64,000 nucleotides of DNA from Antedon mediterranea (Eukaryota; Echinodermata; Crinoidea; Comatulida; Antedonidae), in the NCBI RefSeq assembly GCF_964355755.1, contig NC_092676.1, positions 22,302,288 to 22,366,287 of the forward strand, read 5' to 3'. Positions 6,801 to 41,917 of this stretch are shown here, in pieces; position 1 is the stretch's first letter, and every line of letters starts with the position of its first letter. The notes under the pieces were generated by a model that saw only the letters and a list, made by a program, of their open reading frames with translations, made no database searches and was not told the origin of the DNA. The translations under genes and the position numbers were made by a program.

Positions 6801-9800
6801 GTAAGCTAGTCTGTTATTGGTCGTGTTATTTTTATTGGCCTGGATCTTGTTTTCAGCCTCATTAAATTTAACTATCTTTCAACCCTTATTCTCACTAATC
6901 AAGTATTATTTGTATACTAAGCCTACTAATGTGCACTGTAGGGTAAACATAAAATATGCGCTAATATTATAGATGTACAGTATTGTCCCCCAAACATTGA
7001 AATTATTTAAATCAGACTTGTACTAATAGGTTATTTCGTTTTTTAATAAAGTTATTAAAAAAATTTTTTCACTTAAAAAATGACAACAAAAATGGTTAAC
7101 TGGTAGACTATTTTTTGCTTTAATTCCAGGTAAGTAAATTATTTCTCGATTCAATTTTTGGTCAAAGTAGATAACTATTATTTGATATTAAAATGGCATA
7201 TTTAGCAAAAACATTTTTTAAGAATTAATTTTTCAGGGGGACAATACATATAAGCGTAAATTGTAGATCCTGTTTCCCACAACATTGAAGATTATAAAAA
7301 ATGTTCATCAGTTAAATTTAAAAACTTCATGAATGTTTTGAAAATGATAAATAGGTCAAACACACAAACAAATATTTTTAAAACATAAATCTACGCTATA
7401 TTGCGTTATCATCAGCCTATACGTGATAATGTCCACATATTGACAATTAAGTTAATTCACGCATTATTTATGTATAAATTAATTGATCGTATGATTTTAG
7501 AAAATCTCTGTACTAAGGTGTGGAAACCTTTTCAAAAAGAATGACAAATGAACCATTTTGTTCGTATTCTTTTTTTTTTCTTCTCTTTTGTGGCCTAAAC
7601 AACACTTTTATTCACATATCCTCTTTCATGTCATCACCATAAAATCATCATACTATTTTAATTATTATCACATTTTTTATGAACTTCATCAGTAACATTA
7701 GTTGATGATTACAGTGGCGCATTTTGAAACGTTTTTATTTTGAGAGTGATTTTTTGAGGATATATATAATATGAAATATTTGAAACAATACATTTCTGCA
7801 ACTTATTAAACATTATTAATTATTATTAGTGCATGTCATCTTAGTGATACTTTGGTATACTCGTACAGGTATGTCGTCAGAAGGAGAAGTAGATTACACA
7901 ATAATGTGTGCCTCTTGCGATAGTGGGGACGATATCGTAGACTGTCGTTGCGACGACAAATGCATATTGTACGGAGACTGTTGCAAGGAAAAGTACGACA
8001 CGTTCAATCAAAAACAAATTAAGGAAACTGTTATGTCCACCGCTACTTGCCAATATATATCGGACATGGCATACTATATTATTGGAAGTTGCGATTCATC
8101 TTGGAACAATGAGTACATACGGGATCTTTGCGAAATTGAGGCTGATGACATATTAAACAATCTTCCAGTGTTTGACTCGAATGGCGACCACTACGGAAAC
8201 ATATACTGTGCTGTTTGTAATAGTATTCCTATGGAAGACATGACCACGTGGATTGTGTTTGAAGTTAATAGTTCTTTTCCAATTTCCAGTGAAATAATTG
8301 ACGCTATCACCTACGGTCTGCCTGCTGATTTAACAGAGCATTTACTACCAAGACCATGTCGAGATATGTTCATTGATAAATGTGATTATACACCAGATGG
8401 GTATGGAAAGAAATGTCCGGGATATTTCGCACCTTCATACAATCAGAAGTATAAAAACCCGGAATGCGCTGCTTGCAATGGGTTTCCACTTGCTGTTGAA
8501 AATTGTTCTTCTCTTCTGCCACCCGATTACGACAGCTATATTTATAGTGATGGTTCTGGGTGGTATGGCTCCTCTTACAAAGCACCAAAAACAGGTTTAA
8601 TTCCTTTAACAATACTATTTGGTACATCTGACAATGGAGTTAAAGTAACAGAATTAACAAAACTCTGTAAAAATGGAGAAGTGTTTGATAGTTTTCGAGA
8701 GATTTGCATCGTTATCTTCTGTTCAAATGGTTATGAACTCATCAATGGCCGGTGTCAGTCTGTCATTTGTAAACGTTGGGTTTTACAATTTATGGTAAAC
8801 ACTACAATCTATCAGAATCACGAAGCAAACGAGACGCTGTCATGCATTCTATCAAATCTTCAAAACGTTGGTGGTTCGAGTGCGTTGTACCAATTCAGTC
8901 AATTTTATTCTGAGTTGCATATCAACGATCAACTGCAATTCGAATTGATCAGTAACAGAGATTACTCAATGTTGCGTCATGATCTTTTAACATTATTTCC
9001 ATCTAATGAGATAAGAACGAAGAACCAATATGGAATATGCAACGTGTCGTCATTACAAGTTGATCAGTTCTGCGCGGACTTCGATAAACCAGAAAACTGC
9101 AGTTCAATTGGAGTCAGCATTGAGGAAAATGTCTTTCCAATAATTATTCGAAATCAGACAATGCTACACATAAACCAATCAGACTCATACCATTCGATGG
9201 ATGCTTCCTTATTTAATCATCATTACAAACGTGATAGCAGTGGATTTGCTTCAACTACTTTGTTATTTCCATGTTCACATGAAAATAGTGACCTTACTTG
9301 TCCGTATATTATCGATAATTTAGTTAATTACTTTTCAATAAATAATACGTTACAACACAAAGAGACAGAAGATGTATATAACTATGGAAGCTATACAGTT
9401 TTAGACAATGAAACTGTTAAAATTTGTTCGAAATTTAACCAGAGTGGAACAACCAGTATGGTTTATTATTTTGTTCCGTATAATGACGCTCAAACAATTC
9501 TAAGCGTTGTAGGATGTATTCTCTCGCTTATTGCACTTGCTTTAACTTTTATTGTGTACTCTTTGCTACCTTCACTTAGAACTTTACCCGGAAAGTCTAT
9601 CATGAGTCTTACTGTTGCTTTGTTTGCTGCGCAATTTATCCTAACATTCGGAGCAGGCCAAACTAATAATTCAATTATCTGCACACTTATCGCAGTTGCA
9701 ATGCATTTCTTTTGGTTGGCTTCTTTCTTTTGGATGAGTGTCTTAGCGTATGACATCAGTAAGACCTTTAATAACACTCATAATCGAAGTAAAGAGATCA

Positions 9801-10539
9801 ACAGAAAGAGTTTTACTAATTACTCTACAACAGCATGGGGAACACCTTTTGTAATAGTCACAATATGTTTTGTTTTTTCCTTGAATGTGAAGAGTCTGGA
9901 CTTCGATTACGGGTCGCCTTTTGTCTGCTGGATCAGCAATAATGTAGCTAGTCTGATTATCTTTGGAGGCCCTGTTTTATCATCCGTGTGTCTGAATATA
10001 ATTCTCTTTGGATTGACTGTACATGGGGTCAGAGGCACAATGAAGACTTCTTCTACACTAAGAAGTAGTAGATCAACTTCACATTCAACGTGTTCGGAGA
10101 TAAAAATATATGTTAAGGTTGGCTTTCTATTATTTCTTACTATTATTTAAGCAAAGGCAAAATGACAACTATTACAGAATGGCAACACATGCTTTATGTA
10201 TCCACATTGAGCACTTTTTTAGAGCAGTATAAATGAAAATATCTTGAAAATAATACATTTTTCAATATCAGACCTACAATATCTTTATTTTGACAGATAA
10301 CTTCCTTGATGGGATTTTCGTGGTTCTTTGGGTTCGTCGCAACATTTACTGGAGCTGAGATTCTTTGGTACTTTTTCATTGTACTGTGCTCACTACAAGG
10401 TGTTTTCATTTTTATGTCGTTTGTTTGTAATGCTCGTGTTTTCGGGCTACTGCGTGAAAAATACCAAATTCATCGTCAGCCTACCAGTAGTGGTAGCCTA
10501 GCTATGACACACACATCATCTACAATAATGCCAATATAG
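6698..10539 (+). CDS. SMB-containing seven-helix receptor, paralog 2 (three exons, 864 aa)
   Basis: Exons 6698-6800, 7869-10117 and 10297-10539 join in phase to 864 aa, with the same exon phases as paralog 1. Exon 1 encodes a 34-codon signal region (LLLIIFVFSS core). Exon 2 encodes the somatomedin-B-like cluster (CRCDDKC...GDCC), the ectodomain and TM1-5; exon 3 encodes TM6-7. The membrane domain is almost the same as in paralog 1, including long identical nucleotide runs over TM1-TM3. The middle ectodomain (about 8230-8640 against 2330-2690) has many replacements and indels. Intron 2 is only 179 bp, against 1003 bp in paralog 1. The exon 2 donor is AAG|GTTGGC, weaker than the GTAAGT of paralog 1. 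Ligand and signalling partner are unknown. Confidence 0.85.
6971..7250. repeat. Degraded copy of a TTAA-type miniature inverted-repeat element
   Basis: It starts AGATGTA...TATTGTCCCC and ends GGGGGACAATACAT. The interior shares long stretches with the intact copy at 45979-46316 (for example TTTTTGGTCAAAGT and AAAATGG near the 3' half). It sits in intron 1 of receptor 2; the ends are eroded. Confidence 0.65.
7869..10117 (+). CDS. Receptor 2, exon 2 (ectodomain and TM1-5)
   Basis: Acceptor CGTACAG ends at 7868; donor AAG|GTTGGC follows 10117, phase 0. It encodes residues 35-784. The frame stays open upstream of the acceptor to an ATG at 7829, but the conserved phase with exon 1 and the paralog argue for splicing at 7869. 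Confidence 0.85.
10297..10539 (+). CDS. Receptor 2, exon 3 (TM6-7 and tail)
   Basis: Acceptor TTTGACAG ends at 10296. It encodes 80 residues with the same TM6-TM7 as paralog 1 and a different last eleven or so residues (THTSSTIMPI), ending at TAG. Confidence 0.85.
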   Translation: MTSLMGFSWFFGFVATFTGAEILWYFFIVLCSLQGVFIFMSFVCNARVFGLLREKYQIHRQPTSSGSLAMTHTSSTIMPI

Positions 10540-23327: not shown

Positions 23328-23537
23328 TCATAATTCTGTTTTTCGATTCTTCTCTTCCAACATATTTGAAAGCATTTTCTGTGCTTTGTAGCGATTTAAT
23401 TCCATGTAACGTAAATCGTGTGTGAACCACAATGCCATTGCACAGCGCCGTCCACTTAGAACTGGTAAAACGCCATGTAGATTTTCCTTGCCTGCAGAAA
23501 ATGCTACGATACGTCCACATTTAGGTTTAACTTGAGA
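23328..23537 (-). CDS. P3H: P3H last coding exon (second iron His, Arg, KTEL)
   Basis: Acceptor CCTTACAG; phase 0; 69 codons and TGA. It encodes CGRIVAFSAGKENLHGV, with the second iron-binding His (H742), and GRRCAMALWFTHD, with the 2-oxoglutarate Arg. The C-terminus is KTEL. Family members usually end in KDEL or a close variant, so ER retention is expected. Confidence 0.93.
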   Translation of the reverse strand, partial: SQVKPKCGRIVAFSAGKENLHGVLPVLSGRRCAMALWFTHDLRYMELNRYKAQKMLSNMLEEKNRKTEL

Positions 23538-26500
23538 CTGTAAGGAAATATTATATATATTAGATCCAGCTGACATATTAATGTGTAGGTCATACTGTAG
23601 GTCATCGCAAATTAAAAGCCTCCTAGTGACTTACCTGAACCTGCAATTTGTTATTTGAAAATATAAATTCCCCTCCTTCAAAATTATCTCCCAGGTACAT
23701 GATAGCACTCCAGTCCCTCCAGACAAATGCTGGTGGAACTTTGTGGCAGTTACCATCTTCATCCAATTGACAATTATCAGCATGTACTGGGTGACTTAAA
23801 TCTTGACGATCTGCTGGAGCACCTGAAAGAACAATTAAATTGGTGACTGAAGTGTGGAAGAAATGCCCCTAAATTAAGAGTATAAAACGCATGTTTGTAT
23901 TAAAAGTATCAGGGTGTATCACTTCAACCTGATCACTTTTTGACAAAGGGTTTTGACAACTTTGTGGCCTGTACAAGGATTGTTTCCACTACGCACCACT
24001 TTATGGTTTATGGTTACTTTATTGTCTTTGCTATTACATATTGTGACTTAACTAATTTCTTAAGGGTCTTTCACACCTGTCCCTGCATGGTTCCGATTGA
24101 CGCCGGCAAATTAAATCGAATATCAATGTTTTGTTTTCACAACGCTATGCACCAATCGGTATCCCACGCGAAAATGAAACATTGACGTTTGATTTGATTG
24201 CCGCCACCAGACCAGAACCATGCCGGAACAGGTGAGACAGAACCTTTACACAACCAAGATATTTGTATTCATTTTGTAAACTTTTAGAAGATTTAAATTC
24301 TACTAACCTGGCTCTGTTGTGCGACATGCAAGATGAGTGTACGAATGATATAAAGGTCTTGTTAAATTAAAATATGATTCTGTAAACGCCCTAGCACGTT
24401 CACTCAGGTCTAAATAAGCTTGAGCCATAGAATGTGGAATCTTCCTTGCCCTAGCATTCTGGAAAATAAATTGAAATTTATTATTGTATTATTAGTTGCT
24501 CTATACTCTGAAATAATGATGTACTTGGGTGGGACTCAAACTCATGACCTCCAAATCACTACAGTAGCCTGGTGTTCATACCACTAGACCATCATGCTTG
24601 CTCTGATGACTTGTGTTGGATTAAAACCAAGGAAGCAGCGGATACTGCACCAAAATGGAACGAGGTCCCTGAAATTGGAAGGCAAACATCAAACATGCCA
24701 AGTTACAACATTATTTTACGCAATGAATGGAGTTCAATTTTGTTTTTTAAAAAAAAGCCCAGCTCAACACAGGGCAGTTCTTTCACATGGATGTTTATGG
24801 ATCAAACACAAAATTTTGCAAAAAATGTTTTAGCAATGGAGAGGAATAGTGACATGGAAATATCTTGCTTTACAATTATGCAAATTATAATAAATATTAT
24901 TTGTATTGAATATTTCATTTGAAGAAGTTGAATGAGAAATAATTTATCTCATTTCAAGTTAGTTGGAGAAGCGAACACCAATCGAAAAATTTATTATATC
25001 AAAATTATAATATTGCAATGTTATAATAGAAATAAAAATACCATGGCAACAATATATGAAGTAAAAACATTCAATAAATTAATTTATTAGCAATCAATAT
25101 GATGATAGCAGAAATGTAAAAATTATTTATATAATAATTTTTCTCTTGACTAATTTAAATAATTTAAAACACAAAGTACTTACCTTCAATTTGCCAAGAA
25201 AAGACTACTTTCACAAATTTAATAATATGACCATAAGTTTTAGTATACAGTTTTACACATTTTTGGAGGCTGAATTTCTTAAGAATTTGAGCAAGGCAAT
25301 AGCAGATAAATTTCTTTTACATAGTTAATTCTGTTTTTATTCAGTCGTGATTTCCAATATGTCTAAGAACGTTCTCTTCAAAAACTTGTTGTTCCCATTG
25401 TGTTTTTGTTATTTTATAGCTATCCCTGGTTCAAACTACATTGATTCACACATGCCAAGTACAATATTTACTCGAATAAAAGCCCTGCTTTGAACATGTG
25501 CCCTTCATGAAATATTGTTTGGAATAAACGGAAACCTTAAATAACTGTAACTCTCGATTAAACGCCCCTTAAAAACCCACCTAAACAATATTTATTTATT
25601 AATAACAACACAAATTTACAGGGCCAACTTGTAGTCATAATAAAATTCAATAATAGACCTAAAACTAAAGTTAACCTTGGTTTTGACAAAATCTAGTCAC
25701 TTCTGCAAACATAAAAACATCTTTTACGAGTACAAATATACTTACGAGGACCACCTCCAAAACATCGATACCTTTAAAATTTTCATTTTCAGTGTGAGGG
25801 TGTGGATTGCCTTCATACCCATCACCGGGGTAGGCGTGGCCCTGGAAAGGAAATAATGTCAACCTGGTTATTAACAGCTGCCTATTATTCTACGCATCTG
25901 ACTACCTGAAGGAAGAAATGTTTAATTAGTAACCTCTCACCTCATCGGCCCTCCATAGACGATAGAAAACCAACTGCCAAAAAATCTGTTACCTAATCTG
26001 CAATATAAAACTCTGACAATTTATTCAAAAGTGTTTAAATACCATACCTTTTTTCCACAGGAAAAAAATATTCTTTTCCCAGTTGAACAAAGAAAGTTAT
26101 TAAAAACTTATTTTGTTATTACAAATTTTCAACCAACTTGAATAGAATATGAATTTCTTGGGGATTATATCTATTTTGCTTACAACTTAAATTAACCAAA
26201 AGATCTAAAAATGGTACCTACCGCGCACCCAAAGGGGTAAAACTTTACACCTTTTATCTAAGCATTTTACTCACCATGGCCACCAGTAGCACAGACAATC
26301 CCTCAAACTTTTCAAATGGGGTATGAGGATTGGGGTCATCATCGTATCCATCACCGAGAATAGTATTCATCTGGGGGTAAGTCAATGGAGCATTTTTTGG
26401 TTAAGAGTTCAAAGGTGAGGATGTGCAATCAACCATGCAATAGTACGTTTTACTTTAATACTGACAGATGTTAGTTTGTTACGATGGATGATAGAAATTA

Positions 26501-29500
26501 ATTGTATTATACGATGAAAATGAATTGATGATATTAGTAATGAGTCTATCCGCTTGCAATACAATATTAATATAATATTTAATATAACAATGATAAGATG
26601 ATGGTAACAGCAAATAAATAGATAATGATGGTAATGAATAATGATTATTGTAATAATGAATATAATTGATGATAAAGCTGATGTTGGTCGTAATACAACA
26701 AAATTATTGTTAAATTAATTTTTAATATCTTATGTGATAATTAAATTCATTTTACCAATTACTATAATATACTAGAAAAATGTACGTAAATAACAAACAA
26801 AAAGAGCAAAATTAATTTTTTATTATTAAAATTCATAAAATGATTATGTTCATATTTGCTGCATTAGATGAGAAGTTTAACACAGAAATGGGAAATAATC
26901 TTGTTTACTATGACCTATATCTAAAAATACTGAGGTAATTCTCAAATGTTGCCATCATTTTTCATTTTCATTATAAACAATTTTAATAAAGGAAATCACA
27001 TATTAACAATATGCGATGACATCACCTTCATCAGTAATATATACACATAAACGTCATGTCATAGTAGTATACAGTACATAAAAATGTTTACGCACATGAA
27101 TATTACGGTTTCTGGTTTCTAGCTATTTTCAAAGTACTTTTAGGTATCATGTCAAAATTATTCTACTGCAGTAACTACATGTTTTACTGCAATAATGTAT
27201 GATTTTAATTTGTTTCAATATTGAAGTTTATGAGGCATCACTGTAATAATAACAATGTGTATAATGTTTACCAAAAAAACTTGCTAAATAATTACATGAA
27301 CAGGTAAATAGTAAACAAAATGTAGTTACTGCAGTAACTGCAGCAGAATAATGTTGACATGATCCTATGCCCCTTTTACATGAAAAATAATCTACTCTAT
27401 ATTCTATCACTATTCAACTACGAGGCCTACTATACTCTTGTAAATGCATAGTAAATGCTATATATAGTTTAAACATGCACAAATGCTATATAAAATTTAG
27501 TTTGAATTATTGCCAAGTGTTGTGTTGTGCTGCTCTCCATAAATAAATCCAGCTAGCCTCTTAAAATGAAACCTAAACAATTTATTAAAGTCAATTACTG
27601 AAGAAATTACACCGTTGTGGGTATCAGAGATGGAGAGAATAAAGTAAGCAGAAAGCTAAATCAAAACAGTTAAAAAGTAAAAACAGCCAGAAACTTAGAT
27701 TAGAAATAAAGTGCCAAACTTTTCAAAGTAATTAGTAACTTGATGCTTGGCTACCAATTTCAGAGTTCTGGGTTTAAATCCGATCACATTTTTTTTTTCT
27801 GGCAACAGAAAAAATAAATTCAAGTGGAATTATCATTTTGCCAGAGTATAAATTTAAATTAAAGATGTAAAAGTCTTGGTTTAAAAAGCAAATGATAATA
27901 ATTGTTCGTATAATTAATACTTAATACCATAATTGAAAACTGACGGCAAGGTTCACCAGTAACAAGTACTGTTTTTCACTTGACTTTAGTTAATCCTTTA
28001 CAAAGAACAGCACAACACTTAGTATTTGACATGTTTTTACATGGATTGAAATTCAATTTGCGGTTAATGTTTATCTACATGTTGAAGAAAAGTTGAAATG
28101 TTGCACGGAAGAAGGCAAATGAGAAGGGATATGATTTTAATAACATTTTGCCAAGTTGCTTTCTGACACATGATAGGGTACTCTCTCTCTCTCTCTGCAA
28201 GATGTGTCACATTTACTGTTATTAAACTCAAATTTCAAGCCTCAGGCCGAAAACAGAAGCAGTGAAGTGACTAAATACAGGCCTACAATAAAAAGTGGAC
28301 TTGTTTTACAGTTAGTTCAACTATACCTCCATGGTTCAAAACACAATATATATCAGTAAAATAACCAAGAATTTAAGAAATTTTGCGATATAATGTTCCA
28401 AAGCAAGAACGTATTATGAATTAGGAATTCAGATCATTTTAAAAGAACATGTCACCATCAAGTTTTTATAAGTACTGTATTTGTTTCACAAAGGAGAAAA
28501 AAGAAGTTTGTTTTTTTCCTTGTAAGATGGAGATGGAATGTGATAAAAAGTCACAAAATTTATGACCTCCAAAATGTCTGGTTACATGCTTCCCATTCCT
28601 GGTTTCCTTAACCCCTTCCTGCATTCCTGAAATTCCATGTTTACTTTTGATGGGAGCATGTTGCTTACAAAATTGTTCACTTGGCAACATAGCCCCCAAG
28701 ACGATTACAGTACTCTCCATTTTCCGCCAATGCATATGTCTATCATATTTAAAAATAAAAGTGGGGAAATGTCTGCAAACAGCAAGTGAGAACCCATCTA
28801 TACCAAGATTCAAACTAATGTTCACCAACAAAAACAACTTATATTCAAGAAAACCATAAATAATAAAAGTGTGCGAAATACTTTCACTGTAACAATAATA
28901 GCCTACAGTACTGTAAATAAATGGAGAAAACCTGTATAATTTTATGAAAATAAACAATTTTGCTTATAAAATATTACATAGATATATTGACATCATATTG
29001 AATATATTTTCATTAATAAAAAAACATCACATTAAAATTACTTACAGCTATCTACAAAAATGTCAAAATATTGCATCTGGTATAAAACAATAGTATATAA
29101 GGTTTTAAAAATATATGTAATTTATGAGGTATTAATTAATAAGAAAAATGCACATTAAAATAAACATCATTCATTATGTATGTTAATAATACCTGTACTT
29201 GATGCTATGTATGAAAAAATAAAATGTTGAAATTAATACTAACATACACTTGTCAGTTTGTGTTGAAATCATTAAAATTGAAATGAATATGTAGAAGATA
29301 CCAGTGGGAGAAACAAAGGAGAAAAAAGAAGAGGTAGGACGTATTATATGTATATATATTATAAACTATTATTATCACAACTTTTTTACTTTGTATGTAT
29401 CCAAATTATAAAAGTTATTATTTTCTTAAAATTTATTTTATATTCTAGTATTTGCTTTGCTTTGGGACTGTCCATTAAATCTTAAACCAGCCAACAAATT

Positions 29501-32500
29501 GGGTTTTTTTTGGTATGAATTTGAATGTTTTAAATGAGGCTTTGTGACCTTCATATGGTTTCCTGATAATATATTGTCTAATAAAATTGAATGGTGATAT
29601 ATTGATTTTCTGTTATTGTCTGTTAATAGAATGAGTTTAAATCTATATAAAAAAAAGTTATATAAATGCAACGAAAGGATGATAAATTATTAATATCAAT
29701 TAATAATTGATTTTTACAATTAATAGAATAATATACAGAAGGGGTTAACTTTATTATCAGCACACTGTCTCTGGAATAGTATAATATGAAATTGGGTGAA
29801 ATTTCAGATGGGCTATTTAAGAAGACCAAATTTATGTCACAGTCAACATTCTATTTTGTGAAAAATACTCAACTGTGCTACAAAAAAAAAATTATGACGA
29901 TGCCAGGTAGGTGTATCGCAGAATATACCATTATCTAACAGCGGTGTCATTTAAAGTTCTTCTTTTTGTAAATATACCTCTCTTTGGAGAGATAGAGGCT
30001 ATTGCTGGTTTATCGAGGGAAGCTAGGCACAATATATTCTGTAGGTACAAACTTGCACCAATACAGTATTCAAAAGTGTGGTAGTAGGGAAAATTACAAC
30101 AAAGTCAGTATGGTGATAAAAACCAAAAACACTTTTTTTCTTGCATTGAAATAGTTTGCACTAGTAAAGGGATCATGTCAAAATTCTACTGCATTTACTG
30201 CAGTAAATACTTTTTTTACTGTAATAACCTATTATGATTTTAGTTTGTTTCAATGAAGAAATTGATGAGGCAAGGAATGCTCCCTAAATAATTGCATGAA
30301 CAGGTTCAAGACGGAGTAAACAACATGTAGTTATTGCAGTAACTGCAGTAGATGATGTTTGACATTATCTATAATGATGGATTGAGAAATGATGTAACAT
30401 TCAATATTAGGAATGAAAATAAAACAAAAATGATGAATGATGACATACATGCTATGCAAAATAAAAATAAGAATGGTTATGAAAAATGATGAAATAATAT
30501 TTACATATCAAAAGGTATGATTTAACAATGTTGACAATATTTTATTCCAAGACAATTAAATCATAAAACATTATAAATTTATAAAATATTTGAAAAATTC
30601 TTTCTGAATTTTCTCAATTTCAATCTAATTAACATAAAATAGATTGATGTTTTGGTTGATTATAATAGTGTCAACATTAAATAATAAACTTTAAAATAAT
30701 ACATGTTAAAAATACCTCAAATTGTTAATATAATCATTGCAACATTTTATTCGAGTTGAAGACAGTAAAATTTGCATTTTAAAAACAGATTTAATAAATA
30801 TAACATTATCCTTTTGTTGCTATCAAACAATAATTTTGTTTAATTGACATGACATACATTTTTGTTAATCATAAATTTCAATGTCTTCGGTTTTTCTACA
30901 TAAAATGTATACAATATGCAATCTCTTTGAAGTTATAAGATAAATGTGTCCATAATGTAGATATTACAATGAAAATGAGGGATTGGTGGCTCACTTCAAG
31001 CATGCCTACTGCTGAATAAATCAGCTCTTCCTATAAAAATTCTTTTTTTAAGGGATTGGAGCTGGCCCTGTTTTATGTTTTATATTCATGTTTTACACAA
31101 CACACCCAACCACATCCCCACAGCGGATGCACATTAAGGTTTTATTTAAAGCAGTTTGATACAAAGAGGGCCTACAGATAGGAACCCTGATTGAAACAAC
31201 AGGCTTTCCTTCCTATAACAAAGAAGACAAAACCAAATCATCTGTATTTTTGCATCAAGACATATTTATATTACCACTTCAAAGAGAGATCAATGAATAC
31301 AAGAACAGAGAAAAGACCCACCTGTGCAAGATCCATTAACATCTGACACTCATCTACAGTCGTTAAGCTGTCCGCTACGACACGATTTTCCCCTTTTAAT
31401 GACGCACCATTCTCGACAATCTTCAAACCTTGCAGCAGTGCAGCAGCCTTCTTCAACTTTTTAGCTTTCCTACTGCTGACTTTTTTCTCTGCATCTTCTT
31501 TTCCACCATTTTTATCATCAACCGCTCCGTTTTGTTTGTTTTTAGTTCTTTCGCCCGTTTTCTCTTCCCCGGGGGACTGAGATGGGCGCTCACCTAAAAA
31601 ATGACCATTATCTTCTGAATCTTTATCTGAGATATCAACAACTACATTGTCTTCTTCTTTTCCAATATCTTTTTTATTATCTTCACTCTTCTTTTCTTTT
31701 TCATCAGCTTTATTCTCCTTACTTTCTTCTTTAATGTTATCTTCCTTCTTTTCATTATCATCCTCCTCATCATCTTCGTCATCCTCCTCATCCAGGTCTT
31801 CACTATATTTGTCTCTTGCATTTTCCAATTCTTTGCCTCGTTCTATTAGTTCTTCTATTTCCTTGTTATTGTCATCTTCCTCCATGTATTCGTCTACAGT
31901 GGGTTTCTCATATGGGTCATCATACATCTGTATATACAGTATATAGGATTATATTGGAAACTGAACAAAACATGTCAAAATGTGATCATCTATAACATAA
32001 CAGCAGTAGTGCCAATAATAATTGTAATATCTCTACCTAAACAGTCAGGCTGATACTCATAGTTTTAAAAAGAGTTAGCTACCTTTATTATGGATATACA
32101 GTAGTGCCATGCCAAACCTTACTCTTATACTATTCCTAAACCATGAATGTCAACATTTTGTACAATGTTTTGTACTTTTTGGGGCCAATACCCATGTCGT
32201 TCTCGCACCTTCATTCCCCTAAAATATCAAGGCTATGTTTCACTGTAGAACTGACAGAAGACTGAACATTTTTATGAGCACTTTGGAAATTATAGGCCAT
32301 CTTTCATACATAAGGTTAATATTAACAGTGGTTGTGGTGCTATTTAGGTTTTCATACAATCCTGGTATTACACCAAAGCCAGGACTGGTAACTGTTACTA
32401 ATTTTCACTGAATACTTACATCACCATCCTCCCCCCAGAATTTCATACGAGCATAAGCAAGCATTTTCTTTTCCATTAGAATTTGATTATAATATAAATC

Positions 32501-35500
32501 CGCATCCTCACGGGGTTGGATGTCCTGTTTGTCGTCTGCTCCCACGTGTAAGTAGTACCTCATGTTAGACTTCATTACTTCGTCCTCCGGAGAAAACAAC
32601 AAATAGGTGAGAGCGTTTTGTGCAGCATTTATCAAATCTTCAACTGAAAAGAAAAGATTTTAAAGCAATAACTTGTATTATTAGATAGTGAAAAAAATGA
32701 TAGTGACAAAAATGATAGTGACAAAAATGATGGTGACAAAAATGAAGGTGACAAAGATGATGGTGACAAAGATGATGGTTACAAAGATTATGGTGACAAA
32801 GAGGAATGTGACAAAGATGATGTTGATAAAAATGTTGAAAAAGATGAAGGTGACAAAGATGAAGGTGAAATTGATGATGGTGACAAAGAGGATGGTGAAA
32901 AAGATGATGGGTCACAAAGAGGATGGTGACAAAGAAGATGACTTGACGATGAAGCTGATAAAGATGATGGTAATGTCAATGGTGACAAAGATGATGGGAC
33001 AAAGGAAATGGTGACATGACAAATATGATGGTGACAATAATGGTGACAAATTGAGGAGCTTATTGGATATTTGGTTTTTAACAATAAATAATGTTTAATA
33101 TTGAATAAACACAAACCTTTGAAATATGCAAACTGTAAGAAGTGAAAATGTTGTGGTAAATACTTTTCATATTCTGCACCTTCAAAATTAGCTAACACTG
33201 ATTCACAGCCTTCTTTACAATGTAACGTTGATGCATAATGATCTGAAGTTAAACATTCATATCATAAATTTTAAATGTTCACCTGAATGAACTGTGTTCT
33301 ATCGCCAGTATTCTTAAACCGAACATTACAGTATATGAAGTCACCTACTGTACGAATCTAAATCTTAATTCTATAAGATTTACTGTTTTTGCTTGTTTAA
33401 AAAAAATATAATTTAAATTCATACAAAAATTTGTATCCACTTTTTTAATCTTCATTAAAATACATTAAACACAATTTTATATGTAATACTAAAAAATGGT
33501 CTATGATTTTTGTGTTTTCGTTTTTATGTGCACATCCATTGATATTTATCATTAATTATTAATATAATTATTTTTAACTATATACTATAAGGCTATTCAA
33601 ATTTCTAAATGTCAGTCTTTGATGGTCTTTTTGTAATGTATATTTTTATATATTTTATACCAAATTTATTTGTAATAAAAAATGTCCATTGAATAGATTT
33701 TTTTATCTGTTGAACATCTGTTCAGTTTTACTAACAATTGATTATTTAATTGAGAAGAAAAAAAACCATATTACATACATTAAAAACTATACTTTGGGAC
33801 ACTCCTATTCAGTGGACACTTTCTTGTGAAACCAACAAAAGGAACTATATGTTTAACCCTTCGGCCAATCACTATTCAGGGTTCACCTCTATTAACGGGA
33901 CACTCTGTTTGGTCCTAAAGGTTTCAACTTAATAGGGGTTCAACTGTATTAGACAGAATCTAAAAAAAAAACTGGGAAAATGAGTCAGATGAATTCTAAA
34001 ACTGACTATAATAACCAACAACTTTTATTATTCAATTTAATTATAATGATATGCATTAACAACAGGAAGAGGGGAAGGTCAGGTAATAAATGGAGCAAAA
34101 ATTAAATACTCATTATAATATATTATAGTATTACTTCCACTCTACTGGACAGAAAAGTATTTTTAGAAACCAGCCTTGGGGTAGTTCTTCAATGAAAGTG
34201 TGACCATAGTACTATTTCATGAAGATCAGAGTTCTTGGTTGATTGATTGATGATTGATAGTCTAGACTATTGAACAAGAAGTATACTAAACTGAAAACCT
34301 CCCAAAAAAATAACCTGCAATTTTCCCTATAGTTTGGATTGACAATGTGTATAGTGGTGTTTGGCATTCATATCTACCAACCATTTTAGTAAATCGGAAA
34401 TAAAAGAAACTATAGCTAATGACCATAGAAATGTATTTTAAGAAAAACGAAAATTACAAGAGAATCACTTTAAAAATTAGGAATTTATAATTTTAAGAGA
34501 TCCTGATTATTATGGTATATTTGTAATAGTGTTGGGAAATTGAAGTTGAAACACTTTTTTCTACCCACGGGTCTATTTGTTTTATCTAAAAATTAAATAA
34601 AACAAAAATAAAAAATAAAACTTGGTTTCTCTGCAGGCTCCAAAATTAATGGTTAGCTTTAAATTAGAAAATCTCCCTTGATTTTAGACAATAACAAATT
34701 TGGAATTTAAGAGCAATTAAAAACAAGAAAAAAGTTTTACAGTAACTTAATCTTACTAGATATTGCTTCGTAAAGATCTAGAAAATCTCTATCGTCGTAT
34801 TTTCCTTCGCACAGTGCACGGCACTCTAAATCAGCTACCCAGTAAGCCTTGAGGGACTCTTCCATCTCATAAATAACACCTGTCCAGTTCTGTGCTTGAT
34901 AATAGTCCAAACCTTTCCTAAAATGTGCCTGCAGAAAATTATATAAAAATTGTAAAATAATGTTTGATTTGAGGTTGATCAACTTGATGTGATGTATTTG
35001 GTGGATTTTATTTACAACTTGTACTCTGACAGCTGTATGCAAAAATATGTTGTTTCAAACATTGAACCCAGTGGGTCAATCTCATGTCATCTGAATATGA
35101 TATCACCTTAGAACAAATCGAGTGTGGCTAAATTGGTTGCATTTGAAATGGCTATAAATCATCAGGTAAAGTTGCTGAGTGTTGAAGTACTTTTACCTTT
35201 TTACTATGAATACTGTAAACCTGGTGATCCATTGACTTTTACCACATGGTATCAATGTATCTGATGTGGTCAAAAATTAACTTACTTACTAGGAGAGGAG
35301 GACTGCACAAAGTCAACTGTCTCAAAACCAGACAGCAGATCCAAAATAGTCTGGTCTAGGTTTTCAGAATAAAGTAGAAAAGAATTTGGGATATTTGAGA
35401 TCTTTTGGAAATTTGTCTTCATTGAGACAGTACTTGATGCAATTCTTACTCAACTTTTTACCAAACCAGTACATACGGTACCTTATGCAGCTCTTAATCT

Positions 35501-38500
35501 ACTTCAATACCAAGTCAGTACTTACTTGATGCAACTCTTACTCCACTTTTTTACCAAGTCAGTACTTTACTTGATGCAACTCTTACTCCACTTTTTTACC
35601 AAGTCAGTACTTTACTTGATGCAACTCTTACTCCACTTTTTTACCAAGTCAGTACTTACTTGATGCAACTCTTACTCCACTTTTTTACCAAGTCAGTACT
35701 TTACTTGATGCAACTCTTACTCCACTTTTTTACCAAGTCAGTACTTTACTTGATGCAACTCTTACTCCACTTTTTTACCAAGTCAGTACTTACTTGATGC
35801 AACTCTTACTCCACTTTTTTACCAAGTCAGTACTTTACTTGATGCAACTCTTACTCCACTTTTTTGCCAAGTCAGTACTTTACTTGATGCAACTCTTACT
35901 CCACTTTTTTACCAAGTCAGTACTTTACTTGATGCAACTCTTACTCCACTTTTTTACCAAGTCAGTACTTTACTTGATGCAACTCTTACTCCACTTTTTT
36001 ACCAAGTCAGTACTTACTTGATGCAACTCTTACTCAACTTTTTTGCCAAGTCAGTACTTTACTTGATGCAACTCTTACTCAACTTTTTTACCAAACCAGT
36101 ACTTAATTGATGCAACTCAATACTCCACTTTTTTTAGTAAGTCAGTCCTTACTTGATCCAACTCTTACTCCACTTCTTTACCAAGTCAGTACCTACTTTA
36201 TCCAACTCCCTCCACTTCTTTACCAAACCAGAACTTACCTGATGTAGCTCTTACTCTACTTCCGAGTCTGAGCCAGTACTTACTTGATGTAACTCTTGCT
36301 CCAAATCTACAAATGCTTCTTTACTTGCTGAAATTGACTCATAATATTCCAGATTACTTTTCATAATGTCATCTTGCGGGTTGCCTTGTAGATATGTATA
36401 AGCAGCTGACATGGCTTTATCATACTGGAAATCCTGTAAAGAAGAAATAAAAACAAAACGTTAAAACTTTGACTACAAATACAATGAAATTACTAACAAT
36501 CAGTTGTTTTTTTGAGTATAAAAGAAATTCAATATTTTGTGTTTGAAGGAAAGATAAATTTAATTTGATTTATTTTACATGTGTCAAAAATTGTTAATCT
36601 CATGTTTTCAGTCTTCATACATTATGTCTAGAATGCTGGTTTTTACATCCTCATTTTAGCTGACTTAAAATAACAAGGAATAAATGGGGGAAAATTCATC
36701 AGAAATTTCATTCATCCTAGTCGAATAAACATCAACAAGAAGCAATGCCCTATCAAATGAATGTTATGTTGGTTCATTTTCTTGTACACACTACTAATCT
36801 ATTGAAAGTGCAAGACAAATCATTTCATAACTGTCAAATACAAACAGCAAAAGAAAAAAAAACACCATCCTTTATTTTTCATAATAATTTAATTTGAATA
36901 TTGGAAATTGGCTGTGAAACCATTAGGGACATCGTACATTAACAGCATGACTATGTCTTCAAACATGTAAAAAATATCCAGACCTATTACACTTGTCTCC
37001 TGAGAATGTCCTTATGTCTTCATATCAAAACAAGCTAAGTGAATTTCAGGACGATTTGCATGGAATTATTGACTGCTACGATAAGCATGTACAATTTTCA
37101 GAATCATAATCATGCCAAGTTGATCATAAAACAAAACTAAACGTTATAAGGTGCACACATTTTATCTAATATGTTACAGTCCAAAAAATTGTGTTTTTTT
37201 ATGAATAAAACAATTGGTAAACAACAAAATTTATTGTAAATTATAATGGAAATCGGTTTGAAAACCCCAATTTGATAAGGTCAGTGACTGGCACGAACAT
37301 TTGACTACTTTCTGTGGAATTTAGCTGACCAGTTCGTGAACGGTATCGTGTCTAGCTAGTAATAATAAACGTCATGCAGTAACAGGCCCATATCATAGTA
37401 ACTAAACTCCTATATTAACTTTATTTTAAATAAAATTATACTGTAGATTGATAATTAAACAGTTTTAGGGTTTTTAGTTAGTTTTTACAATTATGAGAAT
37501 TACATTAAGAATCACATGTGACTTTTTTTGAATTAAGTTTTCTTTACCTACAGTATAGATCTAAAATATTACACTTACTTCACTTTAGAATGTCCTTTGG
37601 TAATAGAAATAAAAAGTCACATCAATAAAATTTGAGAAAAAAAAGTTGTAATTCATAACCTATTGTAACTAATGATTTACATCCGTTGTTATGGATATTT
37701 TCCAAAAACTCTAAAGCTTGGTTTCCACTTACACGTAATACAAGCTAAGTAAGTAATATCACCAATCACTGTGCGATAGCTGCTCATCCAAATTGTCGCT
37801 TATGATTGGTCAACTCACTTGCATTGGGGTTATGGCTACATTGCATCGTAGTGGGAACCAAAGTTGACAACAACAAAATTGGGTCAGTAAAAGTTTGGTT
37901 TATGCTAATCATAAGGGTATGGCTGATGGATTCCACAGTGTCTTATGGTATTAAGCAATAGGAAACATCTGCCAGTGTTTTACTACTGTATGTTAGCACA
38001 CTATATGATTGTTTATAAATGGAAACAACCCTGATGGTCAGCAACATTTGTTGTTGTTTCGGTTGGTGAGCAAACAACTGATTATAAAGCTCTGTCTACA
38101 CTATCAAACTTCATGTGGCGAAAAAAAATGTGATGTGCCTATATACAGTATGGACATGATGATGTCATATCACTACCACATTTGGCCACGTCACACTTTT
38201 TTTGTCAAATTAGTTTGATAGTGTAGACAGAGCTTAAGTAAGGTTAATCCAATGACATAGAAAGACTGCAACATGTTCATGCAGGTCTGGTTCACAGTGA
38301 GGAAATATATCTAATGGAGAATAAAATAATGAACAGCTAGGTTAATTACTGTAGCACATATTCACACACACTGGACAACACGCTTGTGTGTGATAATGGA
38401 CAGAACTGCTCCTCACTATCATGTATTGGTCTGTATAGTCGTGCCCAAAGATGCTCAAAAGTCAATAACTTTTAAGCGAATATAATGTGCTATCTTAAAA

Positions 38501-41500
38501 AATATATATTTAAATTAGTGTCCTGGTCTTTACCATTGTTGACAGGATGCCTGATGATAAAGGTTAATCCACAATTAATTCCTTAACTTTCCTTACATGA
38601 ACCTATACACATACAGTGCAAAATAAGCACAGTCGAATGTGTCAAAATGTCTACAATGGCTAGTTGTTTTTTCACTTGGGATTTAAATATTTCTTGCACT
38701 AAATAATTTAAAAATCTTTCTGCACATTTTCTACTTACAGTATCTCAGCTTCCATTAGATAGTAGTCTATGATTCATGTGTTGCATGTATATGACTTTTT
38801 ATAATTTAATTCAACCATGGATGAATTAACAATTAATTAAATAATTCCTCCATAAGTTAACTCAGTCATTCTTACTTACGTGTTTACTGTACTTGTTGAC
38901 ATAAATTCATTGTGTTAATTATCATTTTTACTGATTGAACTCCCTTTTTATTAAACATAAGATATTAATAATTTAAACTACAGTAAGTTTCCTATGCACC
39001 ATTACATTTAATCACAATAAAAGGTAATTATTATAGGTATATTAATATAGTGAACTATAAGAATATCTCTATGGTTATTTAATACACATTTTAATACATA
39101 CAGTTAGATCCAATTTGAAACATGAGCTAAGCAAAATCTATTTACATATACTGTAAGCCTACTGAAATTGAAAGGAATGTTCATGCTGAACTTCAGAGGT
39201 ATTAATTCAATGACTTGTCACAACCTACAGAATTAGTTTAAAGACAGCTGAGCTTTGTTGCTGTAATTATGGGATACTATAAGGCTAATGGCTCATTTGA
39301 TTACTTTAGGAACTAGAATTAACTGTGTGGTTAACAAGTGAAGCAGGTCAGAGGAATTGATTAACCCTCTGTATATAAAAACCTGTCTGACTGGCTGATT
39401 GTTTTGATTATTTCTATAATATTAATGTTGTACAGTATTTGGTTTAAAGTTTGACAGGTAAAAAATGATTTGATAGAAAAATTGAATTCATATGATGGAA
39501 ATTCATGCATTTAATGTCGAAATTTGTTACCTTGTTGTTTAAATTGGGGAAATAGTGTGGTGCAAGGTTATTGTTTAATCTGGGGGTGGATGGATATAAT
39601 AAACCTTGTTGTTTAATTGTTGGGGGGGGGGGGGAGTAAATGTAATGTCTAATTTGGGGGTGGAGGCCGAGGGATATAATGTACTGTTCTGTAAGCTTGT
39701 TGTTTTGGATAAATACAGCTTGAATTATTTGCCCAGTAATATGTGGATCAAAACATGAAAAATAAATGGGGTACAAAGAACCCTAAATCACATTTATCTT
39801 TCTTTAAATTTACATTTATAATGACTAATAATATAGATTAAATACTGTACTCAGAAGAAGAAGAATGTGATAAATGTTCCCTTATTTGTAGTTGATTTGA
39901 TACAGTACCAAATCAGGTAACACTAAGTTTACTACAATATACTATTGTATATTTCAGTGTACAATTCTCAGTAAAGTAAATGTATGTTTTATTAAAATTC
40001 ATACTTGTCAATTATACTCGATAACCAAAGCAAAATCACAATTAATTATTCGGTGAATTATTATATTACAATTTATTATTATTATCATATACTGTAAAGT
40101 ACTGTATTATACAAACTATTGTTACTAGTATTACTGTTACATGGAATTCTATAGTAAATACAGGATTTCTCCAGGCTTAGAGGGATGCACTCCCCATGGG
40201 CATGAACCAGGAATTAAGACTACATATTTCATAACATAGACAGAAGAACATTATCTTTATTTCACTACTATACTAACATCCCTATTTAAAGCATAAGACA
40301 GACATGCATGGCAATTAAAGTGGAATCATGTTTTGGATTATCTAATTGCATATGTATTAACACTAACAAGCAAATCCGTGTCTGACATTTGTATGACCTA
40401 GTTTCTATTTCTTTGTAGGATAAAAATAACTTTAAAAAACTTATCTTAATAGTAAATCGATTTGGTGTTATTATTCATAATTTAATAACATAAAAATAGC
40501 AGAGACATCAATAATTGCACCATTTCTCCTCCTAACCCACATTGACGGCAATCCCATCATTTATGCTGGAGTACCTTTTAAGTCTCTATAATTGTTTTTA
40601 GTGATCTTTTCATGATTTAGGTCAGTACATGAAATGTTTGCATATACATTTTTAATAAAAGTAGTACTAGTAGTAGGGCAAAACTGACGTAACAAAATGA
40701 CAATTTAATGAAATGACGACTTCCCCTTTTTACACATACAGTACTTTACAAATATAAAACATTTAAATTTGTGTAAATTTGTTTTACAGAAGAAAAAAAC
40801 TATTTATACGTTTACACAACCTTTTATAAATTAAATAAGTTGAAAGTTGTAAATGACCTCTTGACCTTTACCTAAATAAAGACACAATAAACTTACTCAA
40901 GCATATAGTTGGGAGTAAACAAAACCTAGCAGGTATAATAAGCTGAATCCCTTGTGTACTTAGCAAATGTTTTGTTCACTTTTATCCAATGAGATGGCAC
41001 TATTTAAGCTTCTTAAAATGTGTAATAATTCTTAAACTTTCACTTTGTAAATTTGCTTTGTTGCCAACAAAGTTAATAATTATATTTAGATATTATTATT
41101 TTAAAATATAAATTCTATTATTTAGAACTATTTTAAAACAAAAACTTTCTCCTCCTTTTCTCATTAGTAATATTAAGTAAATATTTGAATTACTTATTTA
41201 GTCATATTTAATACTAAGAAAAACAATTTTTAAAACATATGTAGAACTGGACATAAGAATGCATACGGTCGGCTAGACCCCATACTTGTCTGGTGCTGTG
41301 AGTTCAATCTAATACGTGGCAGACAAATCTTAGACAGCGGAAGCTAACAACGTGACAACATACAAACAAACTCCGTCTTGTTTACTATCAGCAAAACATG
41401 TTAAACACCTGGTTTAATGTGCGTGTCATTCCTTTAAAATAAGTAATTCAAATAAAGGAATTATTACCTTAAAATAAGCAAACTGTAAATAGCTATAAGG

Positions 41501-41917
41501 TATTCTTCCCAAGAACTTTTCAGTAACTTCTTGATTCATAGTTTCGGGCCGATTTCCAAGATTTTGAAACTTGCATCTCCGTAAACATTCCGCTTGGAAA
41601 AACACGCTTTCAAAGAAAGTTAGCTCCGTTAGTTCATTCGCATTTGTGAATGATACTCTAGAAATATTGTTGCATTTTATACGACATGAAGTTAGTTGAT
41701 AACGGTAAAATTTAAATTCACTTATTGCCTTTTCAAGTAGGTTTATCGTATCCTTCCAGCCCTCCCGCGAGTAGGCTTTCATGCCTTCTTGGTACAACTC
41801 ATCGTAAGTCTTTTCGAAGGCTAGGTACGATTGAACTGGAGTAACGCCTAGAATTAAAATGTAATACGAAATTGTAACCGTAAAAACTATTGAAATTGAA
41901 GATATAAACTGAGCCAT
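23328..41917 (-). CDS. P3H: Prolyl 3-hydroxylase (leprecan family), complete, 790 aa
   Basis: Coding exons on the minus strand: 41468-41917, 36284-36433, 34757-34928, 33117-33242, 32420-32643, 31322-31927, then either 26275-26370 or 25746-25841, then 24308-24458, 23635-23822 and 23328-23537. All phases close, giving 790 aa with one of the two alternative exons. The family hydroxylates the 3-position of proline in procollagen in the ER, using Fe(II), 2-oxoglutarate and O2. Seen: a signal peptide; four CxxxC motifs (C78-C82, C111-C115, C236-C240, C266-C270) in the TPR-like N-terminal half; an acidic Lys/Glu/Asp-rich insert at about 405-470; GDGY in the alternative exon; HPVHADNC with iron ligands H672 and D674; LHG with H742; the 2-oxoglutarate Arg in RRCAMALWF (R752); and C-terminal KTEL, a KDEL-like ER retention signal. 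Which vertebrate paralog (P3H1, 2 or 3) it equals cannot be decided here. Confidence 0.95.
23635..23822 (-). CDS. P3H: P3H exon with H-x-D iron motif
   Basis: Acceptor TTCTTTCAG, donor GTAAGT. It encodes SHPVHADNC (iron ligands H672 and D674), an AFVWRDWSAIMYLGDNF strand and EGGEFIFSN. It aligns position by position with the catalytic core of vertebrate prolyl 3-hydroxylases. Confidence 0.94.
24061..24252. repeat. Miniature inverted-repeat element in a P3H intron
   Basis: The left end TTTCACACCTGTCCCTGCAT...GGTTCCG is answered on the right by CAGAACCATGCCGGAACAGG, then TGAGA. That is an inverted repeat of about 28 bp with mismatches around a short AT-rich core. No coding potential. Confidence 0.55.
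24308..24458 (-). CDS. P3H: P3H exon preceding the H-x-D exon
   Basis: Acceptor TTTTCCAG, donor GTTAGT, phase 0 to phase 1. It encodes about 50 residues including SERARAFTESYFNLTRPLY and HSYTHLACRT, matching the family segment just before the iron motif (SYFRLDTPLYFSYSHLVCRT in the human enzyme). Confidence 0.93.
24528..24600 (-). repeat. tRNA-derived SINE head (fragment)
   Basis: On the minus strand it reads GATGGTCTAGTGGTATGAAC (A-box-like) and GAGTTTGAGTCCCACC (B-box-like) at tRNA spacing, but the sequence does not fold into a clean tRNA. It is probably a SINE remnant in a P3H intron. Confidence 0.4.
25746..25841 (-). CDS. P3H: P3H alternative exon 7b (96 nt, phase 0)
   Basis: Acceptor TTTCCTTTCCAG, donor CTC|GTAAGT. 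It encodes 32 residues: GHAYPGDGYEGNPHPHTENE then NFKGIDVLEVVL. It has the family landmarks GDGY and PHT. It has exactly the same length and phase as exon 7a 433 bp upstream, and both correspond to the same stretch of human P3H1 (GDGYRGQTSPHTPNEKF). Either can join exons 6 and 8; inclusion of both would also stay in frame. Confidence 0.9.
26275..26370 (-). CDS. P3H: P3H alternative exon 7a (96 nt, phase 0)
   Basis: Acceptor CTTACCCCCAG, donor ATG|GTGAGT. It encodes 32 residues: MNTILGDGYDDDPNPHTPFE then KFEGLSVLLVAM. It keeps GDGY and the PHTPxEKFxG pattern of vertebrate enzymes better than 7b. Its charge pattern around GDGY differs (YDDDPN against YEGNPH). It appears to be a tandem duplicate of 7b; mutually exclusive use is inferred. 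Confidence 0.9.
27141..27367. repeat. Inverted-repeat element (ATCATGTCAAAAT family), copy 1
   Basis: The left end GGTATCATGTCAAAATTATT, followed by CTACTGCAGTAACTACATG, is mirrored at the right by CATGTAGTTACTGCAG-type sequence and TGTTGACATGATCC. The arms are about 40 bp and the whole is about 227 bp. Confidence 0.65.
30167..30370. repeat. Inverted-repeat element (ATCATGTCAAAAT family), copy 2
   Basis: It starts AAGGGATCATGTCAAAATTC and ends TTGCAGTAACTGCAGTAG, then ATGTTTGACATTATC. The interior shares GATTTTAGTTTGTTTCAAT and ATAATTGCATGAACAGGT with copy 1. A left-end fragment of the same family is near 60298-60345. Confidence 0.6.
31322..31927 (-). CDS. P3H: P3H exon 6 with acidic low-complexity insert
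   Basis: Acceptor ATATACAG, donor CAG|GTGGGT; 202 codons, phase 0-0. It encodes residues 375-576. The first half contains a run dominated by Glu, Asp and Lys (DLDEEDDEDDEEDDNEKKED and what follows, about residues 405-470). The end, NRVVADSLTTVDECQMLMDL, matches the start of the catalytic region in family members (VVMDGVISDHECQELQRL in human P3H1). The acidic stretch is much longer than in vertebrate enzymes. Confidence 0.9.
32420..32643 (-). CDS. P3H: P3H exon 5
   Basis: Acceptor CTTTTCAG, donor GAT|GTAAGT. It encodes ALTYLLFSPEDEVMKSNMRY and a Y-rich linker up to KFWGEDGD, the family's TYLLFFPNDEVMNQNLAYY segment that closes the TPR-like half. Confidence 0.92.
32690..33055. repeat. Degenerate 15-bp (and 12-bp) minisatellite, GATGGTGACAAA type
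   Basis: More than twenty variants of GATGGTGACAAA(GAT) lie in the intron between P3H exons 4 and 5. Because the unit is mostly a multiple of three and stop-poor, long but meaningless frames open on both strands. Confidence 0.85.
33117..33242 (-). CDS. P3H: P3H exon 4 (fourth CxxxC)
   Basis: Acceptor ACTTCAG, donor AAAG|GTTTGT. It encodes NHYASTLHCKEGCESVLANF, with the fourth CxxxC (C266-C270), then YLPQHFHFLQFAYFK, the family's SHYNYLQFAYY segment. Confidence 0.92.
33775..33950. repeat. Pogo-like miniature element fragment
   Basis: It carries GTGGACACTTTCTTGTGAAA, ACGGGACACTCTGTTTGG and TTAATAGGGGTTCAACTGTA. These words recur in fragments near 59429-59471, 59738-59872 and 60520-60560. It lies in P3H intron 3. 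Confidence 0.45.
34757..34928 (-). CDS. P3H: P3H exon 3 (third CxxxC)
   Basis: Acceptor TTTCTGCAG, donor CTA|GTAAGA, phase 0 to 1. It encodes AHFRKGLDYYQAQNWTGVIY and ESLKAYWVADLECRALCEG, with the third CxxxC (C236-C240), matching YEECRALCEG of vertebrate enzymes. Confidence 0.93.
35430..36280. repeat. ~45-bp minisatellite derived from the P3H exon 2 splice donor
   Basis: About 16 units of 43-46 bp (35516-36240), with degenerate flanks, read TACTTGATGCAACTCTTACT CC... on the plus strand. On the minus strand each unit contains GGAGTAAGAGTTGCATCAA followed by GTAAGTACTG or GTAAAGTACTG. The real exon 2 ends GGAGCAAGAGTTACATCAA followed by GTAAGTACTG, so the authentic exon end is effectively the first unit of the array. 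Several units keep an intact GTAAGT. Confidence 0.92.
36284..36433 (-). CDS. P3H: P3H exon 2
   Basis: Acceptor TTCTTTACAG, donor CAA|GTAAGT; exactly 50 codons, phase 0-0. It encodes DFQYDKAMSAAYTYLQGNPQ and DIMKSNLEYYESI, the first TPR-like repeat (HTFFVGNPEHMEMQQNLDYY in the human enzyme). Its last 20 nt are the seed of the downstream minisatellite. Confidence 0.93.
37713..37864. repeat. TTCCCACT-type miniature inverted-repeat element
   Basis: It starts AAAGCTTGGTTTCCACTTAC and ends GCATCGTAGTGGGAACCAAA. An internal CACCAATCAC / TGATTGGTCAA pair is shared with the other members at 43853-44041, 49455-49630 and 55712-55852. Confidence 0.7.
38085..38235. repeat. CTCTGTCTACAC-type miniature inverted-repeat element
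   Basis: The left end AAAGCTCTGTCTACACTATC and the right end GATAGTGTAGACAGAGCTTA are near-perfect inverted termini of about 20 bp. The core has GGACATGATGATGTCATATC. A right-half copy lies at 61989-62091. Confidence 0.8.
41468..41917 (-). CDS. P3H: P3H exon 1 (signal peptide, CxxxC pair)
   Basis: Start codon at 41917, the first in-frame ATG after upstream stops. 150 codons, donor AAG|GTAATA, phase 0. It encodes a hydrophobic signal sequence (residues 1-30), YDELYQEGMKAYSREGWKD (the family's first TPR-like helix), C78-RIK-C82, AECLRRC (C111-C115) and PYSYLQFAYFK. Confidence 0.94.

Follow-up and report, generated by a model that had tools for sequence, protein, structure and literature searches.

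Homologous exons are known to be swapped in a collagen prolyl hydroxylase of vertebrates. Exons 9a and 9b of human and mouse P4HA1 are mutually exclusive (PMC11868403, PMC6821156) and are termed homologous exons in the title of a 1994 paper cited in the available text of PMC9676403. The hairpin loop, which is one of the two substrate-binding loops of P4HA1 and encloses the peptide together with the betaII-betaIII loop, is altered by the splice variants of C-P4H-I (PMC9676403). In mouse P4ha1, the choice between 9a and 9b involves U2AF1 isoforms, PTBP1, and SRSF7 (PMC6821156), and regulation of P4HA1 has also been studied via ATF3/CTCF (PMC11868403, PMC6821156). Substitutions in the beta2/beta3 loop of PHD2/EGLN1 shift its substrate selectivity (PMC5007464).

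The vertebrate prolyl 3-hydroxylases P3H1, P3H2, and P3H3 arose by gene duplication (PMC3973637). Little is understood of what selects collagen prolines for 3-hydroxylation, a question that in vertebrates is complicated by the existence of three enzymes and of partner proteins. The analysis presented here concerns a prolyl 3-hydroxylase gene of the crinoid Antedon mediterranea that carries two copies (7A and 7B) of a 96-nt catalytic-domain exon, for which mutually exclusive use is quite probable. The window is the whole 64,000-nt stretch of contig NC_092676.1 that was analyzed, and positions refer to it unless given in Mb.

The prolyl 3-hydroxylase gene and its family

The gene comprises 11 exons on the minus strand, from 41917 to 23328, and the joined open reading frame is complete, with the C terminus KTEL, a KDEL-like tail that is an ER retention signal. 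Exon 1 (41468 to 41917) contains the ATG, a hydrophobic N terminus, and the first half of the leprecan TPR region and is followed by exon 2 (36284 to 36433), exon 3 (34757 to 34928), exon 4 (33117 to 33242), and exon 5 (32420 to 32643). Exon 6 (31322 to 31927) encodes an acidic/lysine-rich linker and then the start of the catalytic domain, and ends in phase 0 at CAG/GTGGGT. Beyond the exon pair, exon 8 (24308 to 24458) connects the duplicated segment to exon 9 (23635 to 23822), which contains the His-x-Asp motif as His-Ala-Asp, by alignment the first two iron ligands. Exon 10 (23328 to 23537) encodes the distal His (ENLHG), the Arg (SGRRC), and KTEL, followed by the stop codon.

Identification as a prolyl 3-hydroxylase, proposed in the initial annotation, is borne out by both domain and structure matches. 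Joined exons 1 to 5 match PF23557 (TPR_leprecan) with 267.9 bits against a cutoff of 27 (residues 38 to 331), and the catalytic part matches PF13640 with 49.0 and 48.6 bits. The closest solved structure is 8k0e_A (human P3H1), with E values of 4.7e-63 for the 7B form and 3.3e-62 for the 7A form, and the next matches are much weaker (5e-06 and 7.3e-06). HAD, ENLHG, and GRRC of the catalytic exons align with His-Ala-Asp, His, and Arg of human P3H1; we take HAD and the distal His to be the iron ligands and the Arg to be the 2OG-binding residue. Judged by its sequence, this is a full-length gene of the leprecan type of prolyl 3-hydroxylase, and its product would be predicted to 3-hydroxylate collagen prolines.

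Other features of the gene lie outside the exon pair. The exon 6 linker, which separates the TPR region from the catalytic domain, is long, acidic, and lysine-rich (DEEDDEDDEEDDNEKKED...). Exon 9 ends in CAG/GTTCAG/GTAAGT (23635 to 23641), which provides two possible donors 6 nt apart and would add or omit Val-Gln in the catalytic core. Just 3' of exon 2, intron 2 contains a 45-base minisatellite of approximately 18.6 copies with 89% matches (35431 to 36261).

When the genome was searched with the catalytic domain encoded by this gene, human P3H1, the leprecan TPR model, and pieces of human CRTAP, there were 6, 4, 5, and 3 matches, respectively, all of them in this prolyl 3-hydroxylase gene. 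No CRTAP, P3H4/SC65, or second P3H was found genome-wide by these exon-by-exon searches, in which weak matches could be missed. The genome likely contains a single leprecan gene and neither CRTAP nor a further P3H gene. Eight matches were obtained with PF13640, one of which is this gene, and a P4HA-like gene is present on contig C6, where residues 31 to 90 of the P4HA1 query fall within a single match with one TAG inside. Searches beyond animals are uninformative on animals: catalytic-domain and alignment queries of prokaryotic genome contigs gave 31 and 45 pattern stretches, none of which was confirmed, and viral contigs gave 51 pattern stretches and no confirmed relatives.

Elsewhere in the window, two related secretin 7TM receptor genes (PF00002) are located on the plus strand at 1916 to 4123 (86.6 bits) and 7820 to 10150 (86.4 bits), the first of which also carries a subthreshold somatomedin B match; their sequences suggest that they are probably a tandem duplicate. 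Between 19.6 and 25.1 Mb on contig C3, the same myosin-head exon (approximately profile positions 342 to 408) is listed in 19 places over 5.5 Mb, a pattern suggestive of a large expansion of myosins specific to the lineage.

The exon pair and its age

Exons 7A (26275 to 26370) and 7B (25746 to 25841) are consecutive on the minus strand, and each is 96 nt long with phase 0-0. The first copy of the segment, in 7A, reads MNTILGDGYDDDPNPHTPFEKFEGLSVLLVAM and is bordered by the acceptor TTACCCCCAG and the donor GTGAGT; the second, in 7B, reads GHAYPGDGYEGNPHPHTENENFKGIDVLEVVL and is bordered by the acceptor TTTCCTTTCCAG and the donor GTAAGT. An intron of 433 nt with GT-AG borders (25842 to 26274) separates the two exons, intron 6 (26371 to 31321; 4951 nt; donor GTGGGT) precedes 7A, and an intron of 1287 nt (24459 to 25745; donor GTAAGT) follows 7B. 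Both flanking joins are in phase 0, with exon 6 ending in CAG at 31322 and exon 8 starting with AAT at 24458, and GT-AG sites are found at every join that involves 7A or 7B. When all sites on the minus strand of the window were ranked with rough matrices set from general knowledge, 7A and 7B both had acceptors among the best 1.4% of AG sites and donors among the best 3.4% of GT sites. In the frame imposed by the adjacent exons, 7A and 7B are free of stops; of the two alternative frames, both contain stops in 7A and one does in 7B. The initial annotation was correct in the positions of both exons and in their lengths, phases, and splice sites.

That annotation had also proposed that both exons encode the same family segment (GDGY...PHT...F.G), and comparison of the two copies upholds this. 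They are identical at 14/32 residues and 53/96 nt, with 14, 9, and 20 differences at codon positions 1, 2, and 3, respectively, and their ungapped BLOSUM62 score of 76 was reached by none of 200,000 shuffles of 7B. Eleven of the 32 columns are common to 7A, 7B, and human P3H1. A genome-wide search with 7A (E up to 10) matched 7A and 7B and nothing else, the match to 7B having an E value of 0.0045, and a search with 7B (E up to 0.001) matched 7B alone, with 7A not listed. This pairwise similarity is modest, so that homology of the two exons is argued from their position, phase, and length and from the family columns they have in common, in addition to their identity, and a tandem exon duplication is supported by these sequence features. 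When positions 43000 to 22500 of the minus strand were scanned for GDGY-, PHT-, and related motifs, no third copy was found.

It is highly improbable that the pair reflects an assembly error or collapsed paralogous genes, for which no supporting evidence was found. The copies differ at 43/96 nt, which is too divergent for haplotypes, and they stand in order within a single gene, after exon 6 and before exon 8; no other leprecan gene was found in the assembly.

Comparison with human P3H1 places the segment within the catalytic domain of the family. Without gaps, 7A is identical to human P3H1 at 13/32 residues and 7B at 14/32; of the 14 columns common to 7B and the human protein, 7A retains 11, and of the 13 common to 7A and the human protein, 7B retains 11. 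Both forms align gap-free with 8k0e_A from the start through the segment to His-x-Asp. The segment precedes this motif in the alignment, in agreement with its proposed position N-terminal to the iron-ligand strand. The proposal that the segment is single and conserved in vertebrates holds for human P3H1, in which the alignment is gap-free and the junction is the same, and is narrowed here to that protein.

The exon structures can also be compared. Human P3H1 exon 9 ends at c.1473, as given in the available text of PMC9522810, i.e., after codon 491, and codons 491/492 (Asn/Val) are aligned with the join of exons 6 and 7. The chain letters of 8k0e_A agree with all seven of the codons listed in the available text of PMC3865588, namely, Lys464, Phe519, Tyr552, Phe627, Arg666, Ile672, and Arg681. 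The human exon 9/10 junction is thus at the same codon boundary as the exon 6/7 junction here, so that the duplicated unit is a preexisting exon with a 5' boundary common to human P3H1. Because the reverse primer of a minigene of exons 9 and 10 encodes VTVFKAL (PMC9522810), human exon 10 must extend to the first base of codon 523 or beyond, and this codon is the last one in the matching segment. Human exon 10 is expected to end at c.1569 and hence also to be 96 nt long.

The duplication is old, since the introns flanking 7A and 7B are unrelated (19/60 nt identical upstream and 20/60 nt downstream) and third codon positions have diverged, differing in 20/32 codons. Of the 14 residues that are identical in 7A and 7B, 8 are encoded by different codons. 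By the NG86 method, dN was 0.47 and dS was not estimable, so that no ratio is given.

One copy might be a relic with little or no use, and each of 7A and 7B does deviate from human P3H1 at positions where the other matches it. Neither copy is degenerate, however: human identities are 13/32 and 14/32, stops are absent, and the splice sites are good. In a simulation of drift that serves as a yardstick only (43 changes from 7B, uniform mutation, 20,000 runs), a stop arose in 68% of runs, 0.08% were stop-free with at least 14/32 identities, and none was stop-free while retaining 11 or more of the 14 columns that match human P3H1. Because neutral change almost never yields the observed state in this simulation, 7A and 7B both look constrained, and a relic copy is very unlikely.

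Probable splice choice between 7A and 7B

Mutually exclusive exons have been searched for by the criteria of length, phase and splice sites, and homology (Pillmann et al. 2011, PMC3228551), and 7A and 7B agree in all three, with the same length and phase, compatible sites, and homology. In the available text of PMC3228551, 65 internal fly exons were flagged by these criteria, 26 of which the annotation then listed as mutually exclusive, and in a control on the fly X chromosome, the features were found in 90 of the 16,180 exons (0.56%) whose annotation was not mutually exclusive. The criteria are predictive of mutual exclusivity and are not proof of it. On the basis of sequence features, 7A and 7B are probable mutually exclusive homologous exons, and we are reasonably confident that they would be used in this way. 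The spliceosome would join exon 6 to either 7A or 7B and then to exon 8, yielding two enzymes of 790 residues that would differ solely in the 32-residue stretch encoded by exon 7.

All four combinations (7A, 7B, both, or neither) stay in frame and end in KTEL, giving proteins of 790 residues with 7A or 7B, 822 with both, and 758 with neither. The 32 additional in-frame residues predicted in the initial annotation for inclusion of both exons were thus recovered (822 versus 790 residues). In this respect, nothing in the sequence enforces exclusivity, because the products with both exons and with neither are also in frame. The four in-frame combinations, all with KTEL, and a spacer that is a normal GT-AG intron would suit alternative but not strictly exclusive use, with single and double inclusion (or skipping) coexisting in tissue-dependent ratios. 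Double inclusion, however, would place a second GDGY...PHT...F.G unit within a nonrepeat region, and tandem similar exons that are not repeats are unlikely in a folded protein according to an argument in the available text of Hatje et al. 2017 (PMC5740500). A doubled segment of the catalytic domain would by this argument be unlikely to fold, and nonstrict use is considered unlikely.

Constitutive inclusion of both exons, giving a protein with a 64-residue double segment, is less likely still, although the frame is open and the splice sites are complete. Single copies align gap-free with human P3H1 up to His-x-Asp, whereas the double segment would insert 32 residues before the active-site strands, and look-alikes of this type are rare in flies (PMC3228551). 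Mutually exclusive use of 7A and 7B remains the preferred reading.

Several devices that could impose exclusivity were considered. The donors GTGGGT, GTGAGT, and GTAAGT are of the U2 type. Steric hindrance was rejected because the spacer, at 433 nt, is too long for a simple steric model, and U2/U12 incompatibility was rejected because all of the sites are U2-like GT-AG; spacer length and site type together exclude both of these mechanisms in their simple form. Decay of double-inclusion transcripts through frame loss was likewise discarded, as the exons are multiples of three and every combination is in frame. Intron complementarity was assessed by an ungapped pairing scan of the whole 433-nt intron and both 600-nt ends of each outer intron, with first-order Markov resamples as controls. 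No pairing above chance was found in these segments: for each of the 10 segment pairs, the observed score was matched by no fewer than 9 of the 50 resamples. Because spacer length, U2-type sites, reading frame, and the pairing examined provide no enforcing device, competition between factors at the two acceptors would be the most likely mode of control. Exclusivity may then be achieved by regulated competition of the two 3' splice sites through trans-acting factors, as for mouse P4ha1.

The repeats found in a search of 24459 to 27500, namely, 10 direct families and 22 inverted pairs, are for the most part short or rich in AT. The longest of them is an inverted repeat located in intron 6 (27146 to 27363), approximately 0.8 kb upstream of 7A, and consists of arms of 34 nt that are 88% complementary and 150 nt apart.

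Place in the fold and comparison with known systems

Exon 7 comes after a predicted helix, the first in the catalytic domain, and before the region leading to His-Ala-Asp, so that it lies ahead of the double-stranded beta-helix core. Placement in the fold was based on the order of elements in the sequence and on the topology of P4H and PHD2, in which, by element order, we take the place of exon 7 to be that of the P4H hairpin loop and the PHD2 beta2/beta3 loop. Alignment with P4H by hhalign was limited to the C-terminal core. With MAFFT, the P4H loops fell inside exon 7 in two of three modes and the third mode disagreed, and the PHD2 loop was wholly within exon 7 in two of three modes and overlapped the start of exon 7 in the third. 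Exon 7 is a plausible counterpart of the P4H hairpin loop, and the 7A and 7B forms, which the initial annotation proposed might serve different collagen sequences or partners, would most likely differ in the collagen sequences held over the active site and not in chemistry.

Substrate choice may also lie outside the exon 7 segment, because the cryo-EM structure of the human P3H1 complex, as described in the available text of PMC12433258, has the procollagen-binding site on CRTAP, away from the catalytic site. A counterpoint is that a CRTAP gene was undetected in this genome. If the two forms are made, one gene would supply two enzymes that differ in 32 residues near the active site, a natural swap experiment on collagen peptides.

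A broader reading is tentative, and we regard it as possible rather than probable: an animal with a single P3H, and in which no other leprecan gene was detected, may have independently evolved mutually exclusive homologous exons of the P4HA1 type that swap the hairpin loop, exon duplication replacing the gene duplications that gave rise to P3H1 to P3H3. No comparable exon pair in a P3H gene was found described in the accessible portion of the open-licence literature. Homologous exon swaps as such are already known, and what is new is the enzyme family, P3H, in which none was found described in that literature.

Vertebrate P3H1, P3H2, and P3H3 resemble the gene described here in family and domain order, and the human P3H1 exon 9/10 junction is the same, but the vertebrate enzymes diversified by gene duplication, whereas here one gene has a duplicated exon. 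PHD2/EGLN1 shares with exon 7 a selectivity loop N-terminal to the beta-helix core, the equivalence being by element order; its variation is among genes and mutants and not among exons. P4HA1 shares the swap of homologous exons in a collagen prolyl hydroxylase, at a corresponding place by element order, but belongs to the 4-hydroxylase family and not to the leprecans, and a different exon is involved. If exclusive use of 7A and 7B is confirmed, prolyl 3-hydroxylases would be a second family of collagen prolyl hydroxylases with swapped exons, located near the place that the swap occupies in the fold of P4HA1.
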